54,999 nt of DNA from Frankia sp. AgB32 (GTDB lineage: Bacteria; Actinomycetota; Actinomycetes; Frankiales; Frankiaceae), in NCBI RefSeq assembly GCF_023243045.1, contig NZ_JALKFX010000024.1, positions 1 through 54,999 on the forward strand, read 5' to 3'. The position numbers and the translations under genes were made by a program. The notes under the pieces are model-generated. The model saw nothing but the letters and a program-made list of their open reading frames with translations. It was not told the origin of the DNA and ran no database searches. Positions 44,437 to 54,999 of the stretch are shown in pieces. Position 1 is the stretch's first letter. The number at the start of each line of letters is the position of its first letter.

Positions 44437-46167
44437 GTGGCCCTGCAACCCGGCCGCGGCAAGATCGAGGGAAAGCACTACCTGCCCTCCACGCCGGAGA
44501 CAGTCACCTGGGGCGATCTGCCGAACGCCCTGTCCAAGCCGGTCCTGAGCATCGACTCGGGCGCCACGGTCACCTTCGACACGGTCAGCCCGGAGGGAAT
44601 TCTCGGCGACCAGGGACGTGATCCCGACGCGTTCCTCGCGGCGCTGGGCGTCGCGCCCCCGGAGGTGCTGGCCGACGCCCGCGCGATAGCCGCCTCCGGC
44701 CTGCCGCACCGGTTCGGGGTGGACGCACCGCACATCGTCACCGGCCCGGTGCTGGTCCGCGGTGCCCAGCCCGGGGACATGCTGCGGGTCGAGGTCGTCT
44801 CGCTGCATCCGCGGGCCCGGTACGGCATCGTCTCCACCCGCCACGGCGACGGCCTGTTCGCCGGGGAGTTTCCCGAGGGCGGGCCGCCCGAACGCGGCGC
44901 CGACGCGCGCCACTGGCAGCGCTTTGGCACGCTCACCACCTTCTGCGCCGTCGAACGCCGCCGAGGCCGCCTCTTCGGGGTCCTGGCCAGCGCGAACGGT
45001 ACTCGGGCCCGGTTTCCGCTGGCGCCGTTCCTCGGTGTCATGGCGGTCGCCGTGGACAGTACCACCGAGGTTCTGCCGTCCACCTCGGTCGGCCTGCACG
45101 GCGGCGCGCTGGACTGCGGCGATCTTGGTCCCGGCGCTCGGCTGTACCTGCCGGTGCAGGTCGTCGGAGCGCTGCTCGCCGTCGGGGATCCGCACTACGC
45201 GCTCGCCGACGGCAAGATCGGCGCGACCGCGCTGGAGGGCCCGTTGCGCGCCACCCTGCGCCTGACCGCGCTGCGGGACGCCGCCACCAGCTCCGCGATC
45301 GGCGCGCTGCGGGAGCCGTTCATCGAGACGGACACCGCCTGGGTCACGATGGGCGTTGACGTCGAGCTGTCAGAGGCCATCCGCCGCGCGACCCGCTCGG
45401 CGGTGCTGTTCCTGCACAGCCGGACAGGGATGGAGCGGACCGAGGCGCTGGCCTACCTGTCGGCGGCCGGCCACCTCGCGGTGAGCCACCTCGGCCCGGG
45501 GACGCAGACCGCGTTCTGCCGGATCCGCCGAGCCGACTTCATCGAACCGGCCCCCGCCAAGTCCCGCCTGCCCAGGCCTGCGTTCGCCCGCATCGTCGGT
45601 GCCGGCGACACGACCGGCCCGGACGAGGCGGCCGACGCCAACCCGGACACCGACCCGACCGTCCCGCATCTGGACGACGCGGCCGAGACCGACGGCACCG
45701 CAACTCCCGGCAGTACGGCACCTCCCGGCAGTACGGCACCTCCCGGCAGTACGGCACCTCCCGGCGGCGCCGCACCTCCCGAGGGCACCGCACCTCCCGC
45801 GGGCACCGCGCCTTCCACGCCTGAGGGCCCCGCACCTGCGGACGTCGCGCCTTCCCGGCTCGTCACGCCGATGCGGCACGGCACGGCCGCCCGGCACGGA
45901 TCCTCATCCCGTCATGGCCTGTCAGCCCGTGACAGCAGGAGGCCGCGCGAAGCCAAGCCCACCCGCACCACCAGAGCCGCGCGCGACAGCGGGCCGCCGG
46001 GCGACGCGGCACCGGCGGACCAGCGGGTCCCGCTGGAGGGCGGGCTGGCTCACGGCGGGCAGCCGGAGACGGGGACGCGTCACCGCCGCGACCCGGTTCC
46101 CGACCCCGTCGACGACCTGGGGCCGCCACCGCTCGAGTCCGACGGGGTGGCGGGTTCATCGGGCTGA
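44437..46167 (+). CDS. Acetamidase/formamidase-family protein with long disordered tail
   Basis: The frame encodes 576 residues from GTG 44437. Residues 1-380 or so match the acetamidase/formamidase (FmdA/AmdA) fold: LSIDSGATVTFDTVSPEGILGDQGRDPD, HIVTGPVLVRGAQPGDMLRVEVVSLHPRARYGIVST, APFLGVMAVAVDS, PSTSVGLHGGALDCGDLGPGARLYLPVQVVGALLAVGDPHYALADGKIGATALE. These include the G-x-x-G-N/D-x-D metal/substrate region seen in the family (here HGGALDCGDL). The remaining roughly 190 residues are a Pro/Ser/Thr/Arg-rich disordered tail with an 18-bp-encoded APPGST repeat. The tail end overlaps the convergent helicase gene by 88 bp. It probably hydrolyses short amides; the tail is not part of the known family. 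Confidence 0.85.
   Translation: MALQPGRGKIEGKHYLPSTPETVTWGDLPNALSKPVLSIDSGATVTFDTVSPEGILGDQGRDPDAFLAALGVAPPEVLADARAIAASGLPHRFGVDAPHIVTGPVLVRGAQPGDMLRVEVVSLHPRARYGIVSTRHGDGLFAGEFPEGGPPERGADARHWQRFGTLTTFCAVERRRGRLFGVLASANGTRARFPLAPFLGVMAVAVDSTTEVLPSTSVGLHGGALDCGDLGPGARLYLPVQVVGALLAVGDPHYALADGKIGATALEGPLRATLRLTALRDAATSSAIGALREPFIETDTAWVTMGVDVELSEAIRRATRSAVLFLHSRTGMERTEALAYLSAAGHLAVSHLGPGTQTAFCRIRRADFIEPAPAKSRLPRPAFARIVGAGDTTGPDEAADANPDTDPTVPHLDDAAETDGTATPGSTAPPGSTAPPGSTAPPGGAAPPEGTAPPAGTAPSTPEGPAPADVAPSRLVTPMRHGTAARHGSSSRHGLSARDSRRPREAKPTRTTRAARDSGPPGDAAPADQRVPLEGGLAHGGQPETGTRHRRDPVPDPVDDLGPPPLESDGVAGSSG
45703..45774 (+). repeat. 18-bp in-frame repeat in the acetamidase tail
   Basis: Copies of CCTCCCGGCAGTACGGCA lie at 45703-45720 (one difference at its start), 45721-45738 and 45739-45756, with a degenerate fourth to 45774. 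Each encodes Pro-Pro-Gly-Ser-Thr-Ala in the disordered tail and preserves the frame. Confidence 0.9.
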
Positions 46168-49100
46168 TCGTCCAGGCCCTCCAACTCCGACAGGGCAATC
46201 GGCCGCCAGCGGGCGACGAGCTCGTCGGCGGCGGCGCGTACCCGCGGCCGTCCGGCCGGGGCCGACCCGCCGGGCGCCTGCGGCCCGCTGGCGAGGGGGC
46301 TGATCCCGGCTGCGGCCAGCCGTGGCCACAGCGTCGCGAGGGCGGCCTCGGGGTCGAGTTCGAAGTCGGACCGCCGGATCCGCCAGAACGGCCAGCCCGC
46401 CCGGCGCAGCTCCCGCTCCCGGTCGAAGTCGCGGGCGAGCTGGCCCGGATCGGCCCCCCCACCGCCGTCGCCGCCGATCGCGAACCGGGCCCGGCCGCCG
46501 GAGACGACCAGGTCGATCCGCTGGCCGCCGACCTCGAGGCGAGGGGTGACGAGGTAGCCGCGGCCCGCGAGCGCCCGGAACACCCGCTGCTCGAACAGCG
46601 AGCCGAACGCCGGATGCGGGCGGTCCACGGGGACGTCGGCGAGCGGCGGTGGGTCCCCGCCGGGCGCCAGCGCGGCCGTCCGCGTCGTGGACAGGACGTA
46701 GCCGAGGTAGCTGTGCCGCAGGTCCTGGTGGTCGAGGTCGGCCAGGGTCACCGAGTGGAACAGCCACACCTGGTCCCGCGCGCGGGAGGCGGCGACGTTG
46801 AACCGGCGCTGGTACTCCAACCGGGTCAGCGCGACCGGCCGGTCGTTCGGCGAGACCACCAGCGAGAGGAACACGACGTCCCGCTCGTCGCCCTGGAAGT
46901 CGGCCGGGGTGCCGACCCGCAGCCGGCGGCGCAGATGCTCCGCGGCGGACATCCGTTCGGCCAGCAGGTCGCGGATCATGGTGGCCTGGGCGCTGCCCTG
47001 CGCGACCACGACGCCGAAGCTCAGCCCCGCGTACCGGGGATCCTCCGCGCAGGCCAGAACCTGCGCGACCAGCGCGTCGGCCTCTGCCGGATTGCGCGGC
47101 CCGGCCGGGGTGGACGCGGTGGCCCCGTGCGGGACGTAGCGGGCCATCAGCGGTGGCAGCCGGTCCGCGCCGAACTGGCGCAGCGGGACCAGCGGCGCGT
47201 CCCGGTAGAACATCACCGACGACCATTCGATGATCTCCGGCATGCAGCGGAAGTGCTCCCGCAGCCGGACCACCTCGCCGAACCGGGTCCGCAGCAGGCC
47301 GAACAGGCTTGACCGGGGGGTGAAGCCGACCCGCAGCCAGGCCGGCACGTCCGGCAGCAGGGCGTCGAGCCGGTCGAGGACGCCGTCGAGATCCTCCGCC
47401 GGGTCCTCCGGTGGCGTGCACTGCCGGTCGTCTCCGACGACGATGACCCGCGGGGCGAGCCAGAGCAGGAACAGGCTGTCGAGTCCCGCCTGACTGCCCT
47501 CGTCCACGATGACCACGTCGAAGCTGTCCCGTACCGCCGGGATCGTGGAGAGGACCTCCCGGATCGGCATCACCCAGGCCGGCACGGCCGCCTGGGCGAC
47601 CCGCATCGCCTCCCGGGCGGCCTGGCGGTAACGCTGCGCGTGCCGGCCGGCGAGGGTGCCGCCGGCGGCGACGGCGTCGGCGTAGGCGCGCAGGGCCGCG
47701 GACTGCTCGGCGCCCATCCGGGCCAGACAGTGCTGCCACGCCCGGGCGCTGGCGAGTTCGGCGGTGGTCGCGGCGACCATGCCGTCGGCCGCGTCGAGCT
47801 CCGCGTCGAGATCGACGGGCCCGGCCGGTGCGCCGGCCAGGCCCGGCCCGGTGGATCCGGGCCCGTCCACCTCGTCCGGGCGCTGGTCGGACCGGGTGGC
47901 GCGGGCCAGCCAGGCGGCGGCGAGCCCCCATTCCCAGGCGGCCGTGAACGTGCCCAGGCGGTGCGGCCACGGATCGTCGTCCGCCCTCGTCGGGCTGGCC
48001 GCGGCGGCCGAGACCAGCACGTCGGCCAGCGCCGGGTGGGCGGTGCGCAGCCGGCCGAGCAGTTCGTCGCGCCGGGCGGCGTCCCGCTCGGCGGCCAGCC
48101 GGGCCGCGAGCGCGGTGGCGGCGGCGGTGTAGGCGGCCGGGTCGCGTTCCCGGGCGGCCGTGGCGAGCGCGGTGAGCTCCGCGGGCGCGGCCGGGTCCGC
48201 GGCGAGCCGGTCGAGGCCGGCGGCGGTCTCGGACAGCTCCCGGTCGGCGGTCGCCGCCGCGGCCACGGGCTCGAGTGCGGAGATCGTCACGGGCAGGCCG
48301 CGAATGTCCGCGGCGGAGTCGACGCGGGGTGGCTGGCCGGGGCCGAGCTCGCCGGCGAGCTCGACGAGCCGATCGCGTGCCGCCACCACCGCGTCGATCG
48401 CCTCGATTGCCTGGTGATCCTCGGCGAGCCGGGACAGGCGGATCTCGATCGGTTCCGCCGGCTGTCCCGGCCGTCCCACCAGCGTCCAGGCCCGGTCGGC
48501 GGCGTCGACGGCGAGCTGCGCCCGCAGCCGGCTGCGCACGAGGTCGAGCAGCTCGACGGTGCTCGGCGGCTGCCCGTCCACGGTGACCTGCCGGAGCAGC
48601 GCTTCGGCGGCCCGCTGCGCCTTCGGTCGGAACCGCCGGCGCAGGCCGCCGCCGTCGTCCAGGTGCTCGCGCAGCGTCTCGGCCTGGGCGAGCAGGCTGG
48701 CCGTCCCGGCCATGGCGTCCCGGTCGGCATCGGCATCGGTGGCGGTGGCCGGGTCGCCGGCGGCGGGTCCGTCCGGGTCGACCTCGCCGGCCGGAGCCTC
48801 GGTGAGGATCACCGCGGTGGGGAGCTCCACGGCGTGCAGGCCGACGTCGATGAGGTGCCGGGTCGCCTCGGCGACGAACGGCGCAGCCGTGCGGACCTTC
48901 GCCCACAGCAGCTCGTCGCGGCCCGCGAGGGCATCGTCGAGGGCGGCGGGGATCCACTCCCGCCCGGCCGAGCGGGCGGCGTGGGCGGTCAGCTCGTCCA
49001 CCGCGCGCACGACGGCCAGCACCGCCGCGCGCTCCTGGTCGACCACGGCCGCGGGCGAGGCGGCGAGCTGGTCCAGCAGGCCCCGCGCCGCGGTCGGCAA

Positions 49101-51032
49101 CCCGGCCCGGGCGGCCGCGGCGGCTGTGGCGGTCCGCTCACCGGCCGCGACCATCGCGGCGAAGCGAGCCACCGACGGCACCGGCCACTCCCGCGGCGCG
49201 GCGCGGCGTCGCGGGCCCGCCGCCGGGTCCGGCGGCTGGGCCACCAGCAGGGCATACAGCTCGACGGCCTCGGCGTCGGCCAGCGGCGACGGTGCTGGGC
49301 GCGCGAGTCCGGACGGTGCCAGCCCGGACGGTGCCAGCGCGGACGGTGCCAGCCCGGACGGTGCCAGCCCGGACGGTGCCAGCCACCCGCACGCCGACCG
49401 GCCCGCGCGAACCCGGGCCGCGATGTCGGCACGGGTGCCACCCCAGCCCGGCGCCACCTCGGCGTCGGAGTGCACGGTGAACTCCGCGCGCCGGGCGGCA
49501 CGAGCCCGGTCGGCCAGCGACTCGCGCACGCGCAGCGCCTCGGTGCGACGACGGGCGGCCAGCTCGATGCGGCGGTCCAGCTCGTCGGGACGGTAGGTCG
49601 CGCGGCGCGCGGCCAGGGCGCTCACACTCGTCGCCAGTTCCGGCGAGCCGATGCTGTCCGGTGCTGCGGCGGACGGGGTGTCGGCATCGGTGAGCGACAC
49701 ACACAACTGCTGCAGATCGGCCGGCAGTTTCGCCCGCAGCACCCGCAGCGCCTGCGCCTTCTGGCTGGTGACCAGGACACGCTGCCCCTCGGCGAGCAGC
49801 GCGCAGATCAGGTTCGCGATCGTGTGGGTCTTGCCGGTGCCCGGCGGGCCTTCGACGACGACCCCGTTGTCGTGGCCGAGCCGTTCCAGCACGCGGGCCT
49901 GCTCGGGGCTCGTCGGCAACGGCAGCAGCGGGTCGGCGCCGAGCACGGCGCCGCTCGTCGCGCCCTCGGCGGCCAGCCACGCGAGCCGTTGCGGGGTGTC
50001 CAGCGTGGCGACGAGCTGGGCGAGACCCAGCGGCGGCGGTCCGCCACCGCGCAGCGCCTCGATCATCCGTTCGTAGTAGCTGAGCAGGGCCGCCTGGTCG
50101 CGGACCCGCAGCACCAGGGCCGGCGCGAAGGCCAGCCGAGGGCCCGCCGGGCCGGCCGGCGCGGGCGGGGGAGCGTCGCCAGGGTCGAAGCCCTCGGTCG
50201 GGACATCCAGGGCGACGGTAAGCCAGTCCCGCAGCGCCCGGGCGTCGTCGGGGCCGAGCGGGGCCGGCGGCCGGTCGCGCAGGCGGTCGTGCAGGCTGTT
50301 CGTCCGTTCCCGGCGGAACCCGGGCTGGTCGTCGAGCAGTGGTCCGTCGCCGAGCCGGGTGGACGCACCCGCCGGCACCCGCACCCGCAGGTCCGAGGTG
50401 ACCGGGTCGATCTCCGCGGTGAGCCGGGTGGTCAGCAGGTGCTCGCGGATCAGCGGTCCGCCGGCCGGTCGCCAGGTCAGCAGGCCCGTCGCGAGCACCA
50501 ACTCCAGCGCGTCACCCTCCTGGGCGAGCCGGGCGGCGACGGCGTGCAGGGTGGTGTGCAGGGCGCGGCGCTCGGCGTCGGCGCGGGCCCGACCTGCCCA
50601 GGTCCGCCAGGCCGGCAGCCACTCCCGGTACGCCTCCTCGGCCTTGGCCTTGATGTCGGCGTTGGTCTCGGGGTAGGTGCCGGCCTCGGGGTCGGGCTCC
50701 AGCCAGGCCGGGGGGTTCACCGGGTCCGCGTGCGCCGCGTCGGGCAGGTCGACGCGGCCGGCCAGGACCGCGGGCAGCGGGGGCGGCGGGGGCAGGGCGG
50801 CGGCGGCCGGGGCGGTCAGCAGGACCTCGCCCGGCCCGGCGTGCTCGGCGAGCTGGGCGCTGGCGGGGAGCTCGGACAGCCAGAGGACGAGCGGATGCTC
50901 GTCGACGGTCCGCACCCGGGCGCCGCGTCCCACGGCCAGTTCCTGCAGGAAGCGCACCAGCCGGTGACAGCGGTCGGCGAGGGCCGCGCGCCGCTCCTCG
51001 TCGCCGGCTCCGGCTTCGGGAACGCGCGTCAC
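46080..51032 (-). CDS. Superfamily-1 (Upf1-like) helicase with C-terminal restriction-endonuclease-like domain
   Basis: This is a 1650-residue protein. Helicase motifs in order are motif I VVVEGPPGTGKTHTIANLICALL (about residue 396), motif II VVIVDEGSQAGLDSLFLLWL (about 1175), motif III VIVVGDDRQCTPPED, and motifs V-VI RLRVGTPADFQGDERDVVFLSLV and RRFNVAASRARDQVWLF (about 1415). About 770 residues lie between motifs I and II, a large helical insertion with a PSGLA repeat. The C-terminus (FGSLFEQRVFRALAGRGYLVTPRLEVGGQRIDLVVSGG to FWRIRRSDFELDPEAALATLWPRL, about 1480-1600) has the E ... D-L-V-V pattern of the PD-(D/E)xK nuclease domain often found behind SF1 helicases (REase_MTES_1575-like). Related helicase-nucleases are found in repair and anti-phage systems. 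It diverges from the EndoQ-UvrD gene across 504 bp and overlaps the acetamidase gene tail-to-tail. Confidence 0.9.
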   Translation of the reverse strand: MTRVPEAGAGDEERRAALADRCHRLVRFLQELAVGRGARVRTVDEHPLVLWLSELPASAQLAEHAGPGEVLLTAPAAAALPPPPPLPAVLAGRVDLPDAAHADPVNPPAWLEPDPEAGTYPETNADIKAKAEEAYREWLPAWRTWAGRARADAERRALHTTLHAVAARLAQEGDALELVLATGLLTWRPAGGPLIREHLLTTRLTAEIDPVTSDLRVRVPAGASTRLGDGPLLDDQPGFRRERTNSLHDRLRDRPPAPLGPDDARALRDWLTVALDVPTEGFDPGDAPPPAPAGPAGPRLAFAPALVLRVRDQAALLSYYERMIEALRGGGPPPLGLAQLVATLDTPQRLAWLAAEGATSGAVLGADPLLPLPTSPEQARVLERLGHDNGVVVEGPPGTGKTHTIANLICALLAEGQRVLVTSQKAQALRVLRAKLPADLQQLCVSLTDADTPSAAAPDSIGSPELATSVSALAARRATYRPDELDRRIELAARRRTEALRVRESLADRARAARRAEFTVHSDAEVAPGWGGTRADIAARVRAGRSACGWLAPSGLAPSGLAPSALAPSGLAPSGLARPAPSPLADAEAVELYALLVAQPPDPAAGPRRRAAPREWPVPSVARFAAMVAAGERTATAAAAARAGLPTAARGLLDQLAASPAAVVDQERAAVLAVVRAVDELTAHAARSAGREWIPAALDDALAGRDELLWAKVRTAAPFVAEATRHLIDVGLHAVELPTAVILTEAPAGEVDPDGPAAGDPATATDADADRDAMAGTASLLAQAETLREHLDDGGGLRRRFRPKAQRAAEALLRQVTVDGQPPSTVELLDLVRSRLRAQLAVDAADRAWTLVGRPGQPAEPIEIRLSRLAEDHQAIEAIDAVVAARDRLVELAGELGPGQPPRVDSAADIRGLPVTISALEPVAAAATADRELSETAAGLDRLAADPAAPAELTALATAARERDPAAYTAAATALAARLAAERDAARRDELLGRLRTAHPALADVLVSAAAASPTRADDDPWPHRLGTFTAAWEWGLAAAWLARATRSDQRPDEVDGPGSTGPGLAGAPAGPVDLDAELDAADGMVAATTAELASARAWQHCLARMGAEQSAALRAYADAVAAGGTLAGRHAQRYRQAAREAMRVAQAAVPAWVMPIREVLSTIPAVRDSFDVVIVDEGSQAGLDSLFLLWLAPRVIVVGDDRQCTPPEDPAEDLDGVLDRLDALLPDVPAWLRVGFTPRSSLFGLLRTRFGEVVRLREHFRCMPEIIEWSSVMFYRDAPLVPLRQFGADRLPPLMARYVPHGATASTPAGPRNPAEADALVAQVLACAEDPRYAGLSFGVVVAQGSAQATMIRDLLAERMSAAEHLRRRLRVGTPADFQGDERDVVFLSLVVSPNDRPVALTRLEYQRRFNVAASRARDQVWLFHSVTLADLDHQDLRHSYLGYVLSTTRTAALAPGGDPPPLADVPVDRPHPAFGSLFEQRVFRALAGRGYLVTPRLEVGGQRIDLVVSGGRARFAIGGDGGGGADPGQLARDFDRERELRRAGWPFWRIRRSDFELDPEAALATLWPRLAAAGISPLASGPQAPGGSAPAGRPRVRAAADELVARWRPIALSELEGLDDQPDEPATPSDSSGGGPRSSTGSGTGSRR
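49306..49380 (-). repeat. 15-bp in-frame repeat in helicase insertion
   Basis: Five head-to-tail units of AGCCCGGACGGTGCC (with single-base variants in the first and third) encode repeated Gly-Leu-Ala-Pro-Ser on the minus strand, in the long insertion between helicase motifs I and II. Confidence 0.92.
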
Positions 51033-51536: not shown

Positions 51537-54500
51537 ATGTCACGGTTCTATGCTGATTTGCACATCCACTCCCGGTACTCACGGGCCTGCAGCCGCGACT
51601 GCGACCTGGACCACCTGGCCTGGTGGGCGGCTCGCAAGGGCATCGCCGTCGTCGGCACCGGTGACTTCACCCATCCCGCGTGGTCCCAGGAGCTTGCCGA
51701 GAAGCTCGTTCCCGCCGAGCCCGGCCTGTTCCGGCTGCGGCCCGAGCTCGAACGCGAGGTCCTGCGCACGCTGCCGGCCTCCTGCCGGACGGCCACCCGC
51801 TTCATGATCTCCAGTGAGATCTCCACGATCTACAAGCGGGGCGAGAAGACCCGCAAGGTCCACCATCTGCTCTACACACCGACCCGGGAGGCCGCCGCCG
51901 GCATCACCGCGGCGCTGGCCCGCATCGGCAACCTGGCCGCCGACGGCCGGCCCATCCTCGGCCTGGACTCCCGCGACCTGCTGGAGATCACCCTGGCCGG
52001 CGGTCCGGGCTGCTACCTGGTGCCCGCGCACGTGTGGACGCCCTGGTTCGCCGTGCTGGGTTCCAGGTCCGACTTCGACGCGATCGAGGACTGCTACGTC
52101 GACCTCGCCGACGAGATCTTCGCCCTGGAGACCGGCCTGTCCGCGGACCCGGAGATGTTCTGGCGGATCTCCGGCCTCGACCGGTACCGGCTGGTGAGCA
52201 ACTCCGACGCGCACTCGCCGCCGATGCTCGGCCGGGAGGCGACGGCGTTCGACTGCGAGCTGGACTACTTCGCCATCGAGGCCGCGCTGCGCGGCGGCGA
52301 CGGGTTCGCGGGAACGGTCGAGTTCTTCCCCGAGGAGGGCAAGTACCACCTCGACGGTCACCGCAAGTGCGGGGTGTGCCTGACCCCGGAGCAGACCCGC
52401 GAGGTCGGCGGACGCTGCCCGACCTGCGGCGGCCCACTGACGGTCGGCGTGCTCAACCGGGTCGAGGGCCTCGCCGACCGCGCACCCGGCACGCGGCCGG
52501 CGACGGCGGGCGCGGTCCGCTCGCTGGTGCCGCTACCGGAGGTCGTCGGGGAGATCCTCGGCGTCGGGCCGAAGAGCAAGGCGGTCGCCACCCAGGTGAG
52601 TTCGCTCGTGTCGCGGCTGGGCCCGGAGCTGGGGATCCTCGGCGACGTGCCGACGTCGGCCATCGCCGCGGCCGGCTCCGCCGCACTGGTCGAGGCGATC
52701 ACGCGGCTGCGTCGCGGCGAGGTCATCCGGCAGGCCGGCTTCGACGGCGAGTACGGCGTCATCCGGCTGTTCGGGCCGGACGAGCTCGCCGGCGGCGGCA
52801 CGCTGTTCGATCTCGCCCCGCCCGTCGGCGCGGGCGCCGCGCCGGATCGCGCCGCGGCCGGCGGCGCGGGCCGGGCGAAACGGTCCCGGCACAGCGCGCT
52901 CGCCGCCGACGTTCCGGACACCGCTCCCGACGGACCGTCTCTCGACGAGGCGCTGGCCGCCGTCCCGGCACTCTCGGCGACCGCCGACCCGCCGGCGACC
53001 GCGACCGGGGCCGGTCCGACGGACGCGGTGACGGGCGGGGCATCGTCCGCGGACGGCCTGCTGGTGCTGGCGGGGGAGCTCCCGCCCGCGGCGGGGGAGC
53101 CGACGGCACCGTCGCTGCTCGACGGGCTCGACCCGGACCAGCGCCGCGCCGCGGCGCACGCGGGCGGGCCGCTGCTGGGGCTCGCCGGCCCCGGGCCCGG
53201 CAAGACCCGCACGCTGGTGCACGCGATCGCCCACCGGGTCGCCGACCTCGGCGTGCCCGCCGCGCACTGCCTGGCGGTGACCTTCACCCGCCGGGCCGCG
53301 GGGGAGCTCACCGAACGGCTCGACGCGATGCTCGGCGAGCGGGCCCGGGAGGTGCTCGCGACGACGTTCCACGGCCTCGGGCTGACGATCATCCGGGAGC
53401 AGTACGAGCGGCTGGCCCGCGGCGCCCGGGTGCGGGTCGCCGACGAGGCCGTCCGGGCCGAGCTGCTCGACGCCGCGCTGCACGGAGTGGGCGACGCCCA
53501 GCAGCGGCGGCGGGTGTCGGCCGGGATCGCCGAGCTCAAGCGGCTGCGCGCGCTCGGCGCGGCGCGGCGCGACCACGACCTGGTCGGCGTGCTCGCCCGC
53601 TACGACGCCGAGCTGCGGGAACGGGACATGGTCGACCTCGACGACCTCGTCGTGCTGCCGCTGACCCTGCTGCGGGACTCGGCCGAGCTCGCCGAGCACT
53701 ACCGTCGCCGCTGGCCGCACGTCTGGGTCGACGAGTACCAGGACACCGACGAGCTGCAGTACCGCCTGCTGGCGCTGCTGTGCACGCCGGAGTCGAACCT
53801 GAGCGTCATCGGCGACCCGGATCAGGCCATCTACAGTTTCCGTGGCGCGGACGTCGGGTTCTTCCTGCGGTTCACCGAGGACTACCCGGGGGCCCGCACC
53901 GTCGCGCTGACCCGCGGCTACCGCTCGACGCCCACGATCGTCCGCGCCGCCCTCGACGTGATCGCGCCGGCCAGCCTCGTTCCGGGCCGGGCGCTGACGG
54001 CCGTGCGGGGCGCCGCCGGCGACGGGCCGGTGCTGCTGCGTCGACACCGCAGCGACACCGAGGAGGCGATCGCCGTCGTGGACGGCATCGACGCGGCCCT
54101 CGGCGGAACGTCGTTCCACGCCCTGGACTCCGGCGTCGACGGGTCCGTGGAGGCCGGGATGTCGTTCGCCGACATCGCCGTGCTGTACCGGACGACCCGT
54201 CAGGCGGAGCCGATCATGGAGGCGCTGGCGAAGCGCGGATTTCCCTTCCAGCGCCGGTCCCACCTGCCGCTCGCCGACGCCCCGGCCGTCGCCGCCCTGC
54301 TCGCCATGCTGGAGACGGGTGGGGGCGCGGGGATTGCGGGCAGGCCGGTGTCGGCCCTGTTGCGGGATGCGGCCGGACGGGCGCAGGACCTGGCGGACGC
54401 CCTGGGCACCGAGCTGGGGGCGACACCACCGGAGGGTTTCGGGGGCTTCCCGGGCGGGCGGGTGCCGTCGGAGGCGGAGCTGCGGCTCGCCATGGAACTG

Positions 54501-54999
54501 CTGGCGCCGGCGGCGGCCTCGGCGGGCTCGGACCTGGACGGGTTCCTCACGGCGGTGACGATGGCCAGCGAGGTCGACGGGTTCGACCCGCGCGCCGACC
54601 GGGTCTCGCTCCTCACCCTGCACGCGAGCAAGGGCCTGGAGTTCGGCCTGGTCTTTCTGGTCGGCTGCGAGGATGGGCTGCTGCCGATGCGGTTCGGGCC
54701 GGCGGGTCGGCCGGTGCCGGCAGAGGTGGTGGCCGAGGAACGGCGGCTGTTCTTCGTGGGCGTCACCCGGGCCCGCGACCGACTGGTCCTGTCCTCGGCG
54801 GCCCGTCGCCGGGGGACCGGTGGGGACGGCGAGTCCAGGCCGTCGCCGTTCCTCGCCGACATCGGCGCGACGCTGGTCGCGACGGCGGACGCGGATGTCC
54901 CGGGCCCGCGTGGGCGGGGCCGCCGGGGGGCGGCCCGCCCCCCCCCCCCCCCCCGCGCCCCGCGGCGGGGGGATAAGTTTGTGGGGGGGGTTGGCCGCC
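51537..54999 (+). CDS. Endonuclease Q-like PHP nuclease fused to UvrD-type helicase (3' end cut by window)
   Basis: From ATG 51537 the frame is open to the window end (1154 codons; the last 20-25 are corrupted by homopolymers). Residues 1-420 match EndoQ-type PHP enzymes: FYADLHIHSRYSR (Asp7, His9, His11), VVGTGDFTHP (Asp43, His46), SSEISTIYK (Glu94), KVHHLLY (His109/110), PAHVWTPWF (His165), SNSDAHSPP (Asp224, His226) and a zinc ribbon with Cys278, 281, 294 and 297. EndoQ cuts DNA 5' of deaminated bases. After a low-complexity linker (430-525) comes an SF1A helicase: GLAGPGPGKTRTLVHAIA (Lys556), TFTRRAAGELTERL, HVWVDEYQDTDELQ (Asp732, Glu733), SVIGDPDQAIYSFRGAD, LTRGYRST, LLTLHASKGLEF (about 1026), FFVGVTRARDRL. 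All key residues look intact. Confidence 0.93.
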   Translation, partial: MSRFYADLHIHSRYSRACSRDCDLDHLAWWAARKGIAVVGTGDFTHPAWSQELAEKLVPAEPGLFRLRPELEREVLRTLPASCRTATRFMISSEISTIYKRGEKTRKVHHLLYTPTREAAAGITAALARIGNLAADGRPILGLDSRDLLEITLAGGPGCYLVPAHVWTPWFAVLGSRSDFDAIEDCYVDLADEIFALETGLSADPEMFWRISGLDRYRLVSNSDAHSPPMLGREATAFDCELDYFAIEAALRGGDGFAGTVEFFPEEGKYHLDGHRKCGVCLTPEQTREVGGRCPTCGGPLTVGVLNRVEGLADRAPGTRPATAGAVRSLVPLPEVVGEILGVGPKSKAVATQVSSLVSRLGPELGILGDVPTSAIAAAGSAALVEAITRLRRGEVIRQAGFDGEYGVIRLFGPDELAGGGTLFDLAPPVGAGAAPDRAAAGGAGRAKRSRHSALAADVPDTAPDGPSLDEALAAVPALSATADPPATATGAGPTDAVTGGASSADGLLVLAGELPPAAGEPTAPSLLDGLDPDQRRAAAHAGGPLLGLAGPGPGKTRTLVHAIAHRVADLGVPAAHCLAVTFTRRAAGELTERLDAMLGERAREVLATTFHGLGLTIIREQYERLARGARVRVADEAVRAELLDAALHGVGDAQQRRRVSAGIAELKRLRALGAARRDHDLVGVLARYDAELRERDMVDLDDLVVLPLTLLRDSAELAEHYRRRWPHVWVDEYQDTDELQYRLLALLCTPESNLSVIGDPDQAIYSFRGADVGFFLRFTEDYPGARTVALTRGYRSTPTIVRAALDVIAPASLVPGRALTAVRGAAGDGPVLLRRHRSDTEEAIAVVDGIDAALGGTSFHALDSGVDGSVEAGMSFADIAVLYRTTRQAEPIMEALAKRGFPFQRRSHLPLADAPAVAALLAMLETGGGAGIAGRPVSALLRDAAGRAQDLADALGTELGATPPEGFGGFPGGRVPSEAELRLAMELLAPAAASAGSDLDGFLTAVTMASEVDGFDPRADRVSLLTLHASKGLEFGLVFLVGCEDGLLPMRFGPAGRPVPAEVVAEERRLFFVGVTRARDRLVLSSAARRRGTGGDGESRPSPFLADIGATLVATADADVPGPRGRGRRGAARPPPPPRAPRRGDKFVGGVGR
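54926..54999. other. Homopolymer-rich window end
   Basis: Runs of G and C (one C-run of about 17) interrupted by ATAAGTTTGTG resemble the opposite edge of the window. The protein frame turns into poly-Pro/Arg here. The real 3' end of the helicase gene should not be taken from this stretch. Confidence 0.65.

Follow-up and report, generated by a model that had tools for sequence, protein, structure and literature searches.

A nuclease and a helicase in one reading frame

The stretch of DNA analysed here (the window) comprises 54,999 nucleotides of contig NZ_JALKFX010000024.1 from a draft assembly of Frankia sp. AgB32 (GCF_023243045.1; 6.68 Mb in 274 contigs) and ends within a gene that joins a nuclease of the endonuclease Q (EndoQ) type to a UvrD-like helicase of superfamily 1A (SF1A). 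An earlier interpretation of the letters, the sequence-only reading, had placed both enzymes in one polypeptide, and this holds: a single plus-strand frame without a stop codon runs from the ATG at 51537 to the window end, its first part matching the archaeal PfuEndoQ (E 4.2e-48) and its second part the UvrD-helicase family PF00580 (E 6e-61). We regard this domain reading as near certain. The nuclease half is 82% identical to that of Frankia, the closest named records among the matches listed. Coordinates are collected in Table 1.

Table 1. Features of the fusion gene, in window positions
Feature	Position	Strand	Basis
EndoQ-UvrD fusion gene	51537..54999	+	single frame, ATG start; 1154 codons in window, open at window end
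EndoQ-type domain, residues 1-420 (PHP catalytic, Zn-binding and C-terminal regions)	51537..52796	+	phmmer match to PfuEndoQ, E 4.2e-48; VIA-align Z 45.2
PHP motif I, D7-x-H9-x-H11	51555..51569	+	51/51, 49/51, 51/51
PHP ligand D43	51663..51665	+	51/51
E94, equivalent of PfuEndoQ E76	51816..51818	+	alignment; 51/51; E76 essential (PMC8307549)
H109 H110; H109 equivalent of PfuEndoQ H84 (essential)	51861..51866	+	alignment; 51/51; PMC8307549
H165, equivalent of PfuEndoQ H139 (catalytic and pocket)	52029..52031	+	alignment; 51/51; PMC8307549
G200-L-S202, equivalents of PfuEndoQ G169 and S171	52134..52142	+	invariant in A2 and A3; reported T/A exclusion (PMC8307549)
SDAH motif, D224/H226; D224 equivalent of PfuEndoQ D193	52206..52214	+	alignment; 51/51
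Zn ribbon, H275-x2-C278 ... C294-x2-C297	52359..52427	+	putative ligands by alignment
Low-complexity disordered linker, residues 421-522, starting GTLFD	52797..53102	+	pLDDT <50 at 420-467 and 476-522; composition
SF1A UvrD-like helicase, residues 524-1116	53106..54884	+	PF00580/PF13361; Z 43.6 to D. radiodurans UvrD
Walker A (motif I), AGPGPGKT	53184..53207	+	P554 unique among 51
Motif II, DEYQD	53730..53744	+	frame; A3 count
Motif VI, EERRLFFVGVTRA	54735..54773	+	frame; A3 count
Untrusted tail by assembly gap	54885..54999	+	8-N gap, homopolymers; likely true C-terminus (QQLRLV) outside window, C99:55075-55110

The nuclease half belongs with EndoQ. In a phmmer search of the PDB (E 0.001), residues 1-420 matched EndoQ chains exclusively (5zb8, and 7k30-7k33), and a profile built from eight relatives (A1), searched up to E 10, returned three EndoQ sequences followed by two non-PHP chains (E 0.1 and 3.7). 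Membership in another PHP family is ruled out by these matches, in which EndoQ chains are the sole PHP chains; the grouping is one of PDB sequence matches. In Pfam, neither PfuEndoQ nor any of three bacterial domains submitted reached the cut-off of a PHP family. An AlphaFold2 model of residues 1-1116 (51 alignment rows; mean predicted local distance difference test score, pLDDT, 82.8; predicted template modelling score, pTM, 0.57) superimposes at residues 2-420 on the 398 residues of 5zb8_B with Z 45.2 and a root-mean-square deviation of 2.4 over 383 aligned residues (VIA-align), and the predicted EndoQ fold thus spans the whole nuclease half. The profile search that had been proposed as a check was successful for UvrD; TIGR00375 is matched (E 6e-41) at 141 bits, far under its curated cut-off of 326.6. 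Four other long-form bacterial domains score 144-190 bits and PfuEndoQ scores 430. On the strength of these scores, the nuclease half is assigned by sequence to a separate, long-form bacterial subfamily of EndoQ.

The metal-binding positions named in the sequence-only reading were all correct, and the set matches that of PfuEndoQ in the alignment. Among 51 fused proteins (A3: the window, two relatives from the genus and 48 of 75 fused loci found elsewhere), D7, H11, D43, E94, H109, H110, H165, E198, D224 and H226 are conserved in every one and H9 in 49. The two others, L038 and L043, are fusions from alphaproteobacterial metagenome-assembled genomes with glutamine at this position, which may mean an altered metal site or an inactive nuclease. 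The PfuEndoQ D193 position, equivalent to D224, reads N in chains 7k30 and 7k31. According to a review (PMC8307549), E76, H84 and H139 of PfuEndoQ are essential, and T and A are kept out by steric hindrance from H139, G169 and S171. The corresponding E94, H109, H165, G200 and S202 are invariant both in A3 and in a 28-row alignment that includes PfuEndoQ (A2). The ribbon described earlier as four cysteines needs correction. By alignment, a predicted Zn-binding domain after the PHP domain has four putative ligand positions, the first being 275 (C in PfuEndoQ), which is H in 50 of the 51 fused proteins and C in one (L091), followed by C278, C294 and C297 in all 51; C281 is cysteine in just nine.

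The helicase half has the residues of SF1A motifs I to VI and a predicted UvrD-like fold. Pfam places PF00580 at residues 531-784 and UvrD_C (PF13361) at 999-1088, and the model aligns with D. radiodurans UvrD (4c2u_A) over 541 residues (Z 43.6), so that structure prediction, another check suggested earlier, bears out both halves. The claim that all SF1A motifs are present is likewise supported: K556, T557, D732, E733, Q735, D736, D760, Q763, R769, Y795, R796, K1032, G1033, R1070 and R1078 each occur in 51 of 51 proteins. Among 71 fused proteins with their own stop codon, two of which (L071 and L073) end early, expressions for motifs I, Ia, II, III, IV, V and VI matched 69, 69, 68, 69, 30, 54 and 63 respectively; we attribute the low counts for IV and V to narrow expressions, as the positional count shows. 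Position 554 in Walker A is P in the window alone (of the other 50 proteins, 35 have T, 14 S and one A), which may be a sequencing error or may indicate a weakened ATPase in this strain. The UvrD/PcrA/Rep equivalogs (TIGR01073-1075) stay below their cut-offs (at best 324 vs 911 bits). Because the linker between the halves is disordered and the pTM is 0.57, we do not read the mutual placement of the two halves from the model.

An 8-N gap (C99:55000-55007; L002:10001-10008), with G/C homopolymers on both flanks, adjoins the window end, and for this reason we judge the final 35-40 residues of the printed frame to be unreliable. Beyond the gap, in a different frame, lies RPVAGQQLRLV followed by a stop; GQQLRLV is also the C-terminus of three relatives from the same genus (L004, L006 and L007), and this is likely to be the real C-terminus of the gene.

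Distribution and ancestry of the fusion

The fusion is broadly distributed and, in our view, gives a known family of enzymes a new architecture. A scan of genome contigs with A1 found at least 585 relatives, of which the best 80 were kept. In 75 of these 80 the helicase is in the same frame as EndoQ, four of the 75 running off their contig; in two (L077 and L090) it occupies the open frame that follows and overlaps, and in three (L067, L078 and L083) the locus lacks a helicase. With NCBI ranks assigned from their record titles, the 75 fused loci comprise 42 from Actinomycetota, eight from Melainabacteria, seven from Pseudomonadota, five from Planctomycetota, four from Elusimicrobiota, two each from Binatota, Myxococcota and Verrucomicrobiota, and three without a phylum. 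EndoQ had been described in the sequence-only reading as known from Thermococcales and a few bacteria; that is too narrow, as record titles place the fused family in eight bacterial phyla or more. Because many of these loci are contigs of metagenome-assembled genomes, individual assignments may be binning errors (L019 and L037 adjoin actinobacterial rows in the nuclease tree described below).

Among the 13 genomes of the genus, ten have both halves in one open frame, including the window's genome and three assembled as single contigs (G001, G003 and G005). In G002 the fused frame has a stop inside the final matched stretch; G006 has the helicase half alone, and G009 and G012, both fragmented, have weaker, paralogue-like matches only. 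The draft state of the window's genome and the gap directly past the window raise the question of whether two genes were joined in assembly. We rule this out and give it negligible probability, because one frame holds both halves in ten of the 13 genomes of the genus and in 75 of the 80 loci kept, among them single-contig genomes and members of many phyla, and the junction is far from the gap. None of the outcomes that the sequence-only reading had named as fatal to it, namely another PHP family, lost catalytic residues or an assembly join, was encountered for the window's protein.

Samples of individual phyla indicate how often the two halves go together. A protein query found the nuclease half in 7 of 396 genomes of the window's phylum (five fused, one cut by a contig end and one standalone). 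Profile A2 (E 1e-15) was used for the other samples. It matched 19 of 398 genomes in the phylum of a Devosia record (nine fused, with the helicase seen, eight of standalone length and two partial) and 5 of 46 in the phylum of the L067 record, with frames of 377-630 amino acids. In two further samples, frame length served as a proxy for fusion save for loci checked for the nuclease tree: 46 of 194 genomes matched in the phylum of a Gastranaerophilales record (36 frames of at least 949 amino acids, nine of 418-449 and one apparently cut) and 25 of 199 in that of a Pirellulaceae record (ten long, 13 of 439-557 amino acids and two partial). Some Gastranaerophilales-type genomes (L077:5992-8920, L090:5992-8921 and L112) have the halves in separate frames, which may reflect natural fission or a frameshift; measured from stop to stop rather than from starts, the overlap is 26 bases long in L077 and 19 in L090.

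The fused helicases form a line of their own. In a tree built by a quick method, one branch (Shimodaira-Hasegawa-like approximate likelihood ratio support 99) separates 26 fused and two split helicases from 23 paralogues sampled from eight genomes and the genus, which by size and similarity we take to be of the UvrD/PcrA, UvrD2 and AdnAB/AddAB types. Left out of this tree were L049, L149, L164 and L150, which lack a Walker A pattern in the searched stretch, and frames without a phmmer match. In this tree, the line holds EndoQ-fused or EndoQ-adjacent members only. Since the fused helicases form one clade apart from the paralogues, the partnership of this helicase line with EndoQ looks old. The nuclease tree (105 fused, 13 alone including PfuEndoQ, three split and three undecided) interleaves fused and standalone forms and requires at least seven changes between them, which suggests that the fusion was lost or gained repeatedly. 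This tree was also made by a quick method; it has many open forks and PfuEndoQ sits on a very long branch, and we read no root from it.

These trees also bear on the idea that the helicase acts mainly alone, in replication or recombination, and that the EndoQ half serves solely as a lesion-sensing or tethering module. The nuclease can evidently live apart from the helicase, as the long-form EndoQ frames of standalone length indicate (8 of 19 and 13 of 25 in two of the phylum samples). However, a module retained for sensing or tethering agrees poorly with catalytic metal ligands that are present in all 51 fused proteins, H9 in two of them excepted, and with a helicase line that, among the helicases sampled, has EndoQ as its constant companion. 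We consider this idea very improbable.

A clamp-like peptide at the C-terminus

Most fused proteins end in a short motif resembling a ligand of the bacterial sliding clamp. Among the 71 with their own stop codon, QL.L[FLIVM] occurs in the last 30 residues of 63, in the last 12 of 61 and in the last five of 59. When the last 40 residues were shuffled, the motif turned up in 0.12 of the 71 on average and in two at most, and elsewhere in these proteins it appears a single time in 75,944 residues. The distribution is broad, with a match in the last 12 residues in Actinomycetota (38/42), Melainabacteria (7/8), Pseudomonadota (4/5), Elusimicrobiota (3/3), Binatota (2/2), Myxococcota (2/2), Verrucomicrobiota (2/2) and the records without a phylum (3/3). 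Both split helicases, L077 and L090, keep such a tail, and the motif was found in none of 15 paralogous helicases with their own stop. Of the eight proteins without it in the last 30 residues, six have near forms (QQRLF, QPRLL, QMELF, QDSLF, QRTLF and QRRLF); the other two, L071 and L073, have shorter, unrelated ends. The four Planctomycetota tails (L036, L054, L055 and L064) comprise three ending in QMELF, QRTLF or QRRLF and one with QLTLF further in. The motif adds to what the sequence-only reading had noted; it lies outside the window and so could not be seen in its letters.

Peptides that bind the bacterial clamp have the consensus QLxLF, frequently located at the C-terminus (PMC4549789, PMC12309361), and a pentapeptide of this type is present in an accessible tail in most relatives, outside the trusted part of the window sequence. 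From this likeness, the QLxL[FLIVM] tail is most likely a ligand of the beta-clamp (DnaN), and we infer that it binds there. A precedent exists in archaea: the C-terminal PIP box of TkoEndoQ binds PCNA with a dissociation constant of 55 nM, and PCNA stimulates the enzyme (PMC4858679); the P. abyssi homologue, a member of COG1379, had been found earlier as a PCNA partner (PMC3820547). The tail described here would be the analogue of the archaeal PCNA box, moved to the end of the helicase. Clamp consensus sequences have also been pointed out in the C-terminal region of bacterial EndoQ homologues (PMC4858679). Of the standalone frames whose tails we examined, one EndoQ-like protein from the window's phylum (L014, genome G287) ends in EQLSLL, a clamp-like tail without a helicase, and the others lack the motif.

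The linker carries a second short element. Soon past the end of the nuclease half, 56 of 74 fused proteins have LF[DEGTA], against a mean of 2.6 in shuffled sequences, and the LFD-like motif of the window (52797-52811) and its relatives, at times in the form QETLFDVP, is a possible second clamp ligand. We do not claim it as such, Q..LF being present in just 16 of 74.

The fusion has features in common with several known systems. Thermococcales EndoQ (PfuEndoQ, PF1551; TkoEndoQ, TK0887; structures 5zb8 and 7k30-7k33) has the same fold over its whole length, the same PHP ligands and pocket residues, a Zn ribbon and a C-terminal sliding-clamp ligand, which in the fusion is a motif only. It differs in being a standalone nuclease of about 400-424 amino acids with an all-cysteine ribbon and a PCNA box directly after the nuclease, whereas in the fusion the clamp-like motif stands at the end of a helicase of about 600 residues; the two share 34% identity and, by TIGR00375 score, fall in different subfamilies. 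Nuclease and UvrD-like motor are likewise found in one complex or chain in AddAB, RecBCD and AdnAB, and AddA, AdnB and RecB are among the fold matches of our model. In these, a RecB-type nuclease stands at the C-terminus, whereas that of the fusion is, as predicted from sequence, an N-terminal PHP nickase. With UvrD, PcrA and Rep, the fusion helicase has the motif residues and fold in common; it differs from them in its separate clade, its sub-threshold equivalog scores, its attached nuclease and, mostly, its QLxLF-like end. The standalone EndoQ of B. pumilus and B. subtilis belongs to the same superfamily, and EndoQ activity has been reported for the former (PMC6202378) and, as a preliminary result, for the latter (PMC4357722). 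This likeness is drawn by description rather than by sequence, and no helicase is mentioned for the Bacillus enzymes in the accessible parts of these sources.

Proposed function in DNA repair

Our results suggest that the fusion is a chromosomal repair enzyme for deaminated bases, tethered to the clamp, that nicks and unwinds DNA, with incision and strand displacement in one chain. We put the probability of this reading at about 0.6. The domain identities, the conserved catalytic and pocket residues, the widespread fusion with a dedicated helicase line and the clamp-like tail in most relatives are direct observations; for the substrates, the strand on which the helicase loads, clamp binding and the coupling of the two activities, we infer the following course. 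The pocket of the EndoQ half would receive a flipped-out deaminated base (uracil, hypoxanthine or xanthine) or abasic site, and the nick would fall 5' to the lesion, with a 3'-OH on one side and, on the damaged nucleotide, a 5'-phosphate. UvrD-family helicases translocate 3'-5'; the linked helicase would load at the nick on the intact strand, and therefore the damaged strand would leave as a 5' flap beginning with the lesion. The C-terminal tail would keep the enzyme at the beta-clamp, where a polymerase may extend from the 3'-OH, and flap removal and ligation would complete the patch. The polarity of the nick and its ends are those described for EndoQ (PMC4357722). A single-protein machine of this kind, as the sequence-only reading had supposed, fits the conserved catalytic site, the pocket triad, the EndoQ-bound helicase line and the clamp-like tail.

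Several points weigh against this proposal. The EndoQ half is only 34% identical to PfuEndoQ and its TIGR00375 score of 141 falls well short of the 326.6 cut-off; H9 is missing from two of the 51 fused proteins, and the window has an unusual proline in Walker A. The strict tail motif has no match in the last 12 residues of 10 of the 71 proteins, including all four Planctomycetota, the 71 tails are not independent (42 are from Actinomycetota, and 15 of the 75 fused loci are Micromonospora), and the window's own tail is broken by the assembly gap. For the direction of the pathway and for binding to the clamp, the grounds are knowledge of the families and a motif of five residues. No assay of the fusion, or of a long-form bacterial EndoQ like this one, is known to us. 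The pathway would also be redundant. Proteins of the UDG superfamily were found in 20 of 20 EndoQ-bearing genomes examined, so a substitute for missing UDG is ruled out in these 20. EndoV exceeded its cut-off in 19 of 34 genomes (13 strong matches, six weak or partial), or in 18 of the 32 that bear EndoQ once G009 and G012, without the fusion, are set aside; the match in the window's genome is strong. A role as a substitute for EndoV is unsupported by these counts. In the 20 genomes examined for UDG, the fusion enzyme is hence not the sole means of uracil repair; given UDG and EndoV, it adds to the other routes and does not replace them.

It is also possible that the enzyme nicks and unwinds at other lesions. 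In that case the pocket would have shifted, for instance to abasic sites or oxidised pyrimidines, with deaminated bases secondary. The presence of UDG in every genome examined, and of EndoV in many, is compatible with such a shift, as are the distance of five long-form domains, fused or alone (141-190 bits), from PfuEndoQ on the TIGR00375 scale and the reported activity of PfuEndoQ itself on oxidised pyrimidines (PMC8307549). However, the equivalents of the residues reported to exclude T and A (H139, G169 and S171) are invariant, and we consider this explanation unlikely, although less so than the other alternatives discussed here.

If the repair proposal is right, its implications are wider. 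EndoQ has so far been seen chiefly as an enzyme of archaea, with a few exceptions among bacteria. Within one polypeptide, and in eight or more bacterial phyla according to record titles, the fusion offers a plausible step to follow the nick. What happens after EndoQ incision, and whether ordinary soil bacteria have a repair route free of glycosylases, thereby become directly testable with one protein. There may be a widespread and so far unstudied bacterial pathway of excision repair in one clamp-tethered protein, with EndoQ-type incision, immediate displacement by the helicase and hand-over at the clamp, acting behind or at the fork and in parallel to UDG and EndoV; bacteria and archaea would each have linked EndoQ to their own clamp, bacteria via the end of an acquired helicase. 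We give this broader view about an even chance. We found no description of an EndoQ-helicase fusion in the open-licence papers searched, and one may exist elsewhere; it is unmentioned in the accessible parts of PMC4357722, PMC6202378, PMC4858679, PMC11354406, PMC8307549, PMC3820547 and PMC7776575.

Genomic setting and a possible role in defence

A defence function was suggested for Bacillus EndoQ (PMC8307549), and the fusion might similarly act against phages with uracil-containing or otherwise base-modified DNA, the helicase opening their genomes for degradation. The divergent neighbour of the gene (46080-51032, minus strand), a protein of 1650 amino acids with helicase-type AAA_11/AAA_12 domains and a C-terminal nuclease domain of the REase_MTES_1575 type, partly resembles the candidate defence profiles Hhe and PDC-S37 of PADLOC, and its relatives stand beside the fusion gene in five of six loci examined, all from the genus or named Frankia. 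The helicase half also matches GajB profiles, as other UvrD-like helicases probably would. This association does not extend across phyla, however: among 58 of the 80 loci, neighbour clusters of at least four loci included no cross-phylum family except ABC-transporter ATPases. No relative of the fusion was found in 50,697 phage records or 72,556 plasmid records, and 43 pattern matches in viral contigs included none, which rules out a mobile or phage gene. The clamp-type tail is better suited to repair or replication, and presence in 10 of 13 genus genomes is, in our judgement, steadier than for most defence genes. An anti-phage role is hence improbable, and a chromosomal repair enzyme remains the preferred reading.

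Shared operon partners are unsupported as well. The ABC-transporter ATPases, the sole cross-phylum cluster, lie 3-4.5 kb from the gene in seven loci and are a very common family; the remaining clusters are confined to Micromonosporaceae or to a group of four other actinobacterial loci. Downstream of the fusion gene are a methyltransferase and then, as judged by eye, ordinary metabolic and regulatory genes. One record among the relatives appears to be mislabelled: the nuclease half in a record titled Rhodococcus rhodnii NRRL B-16535 is nearly identical to that of Kibdelosporangium philippinense (L030/L031), and the genome in that record is 12.4 Mb.

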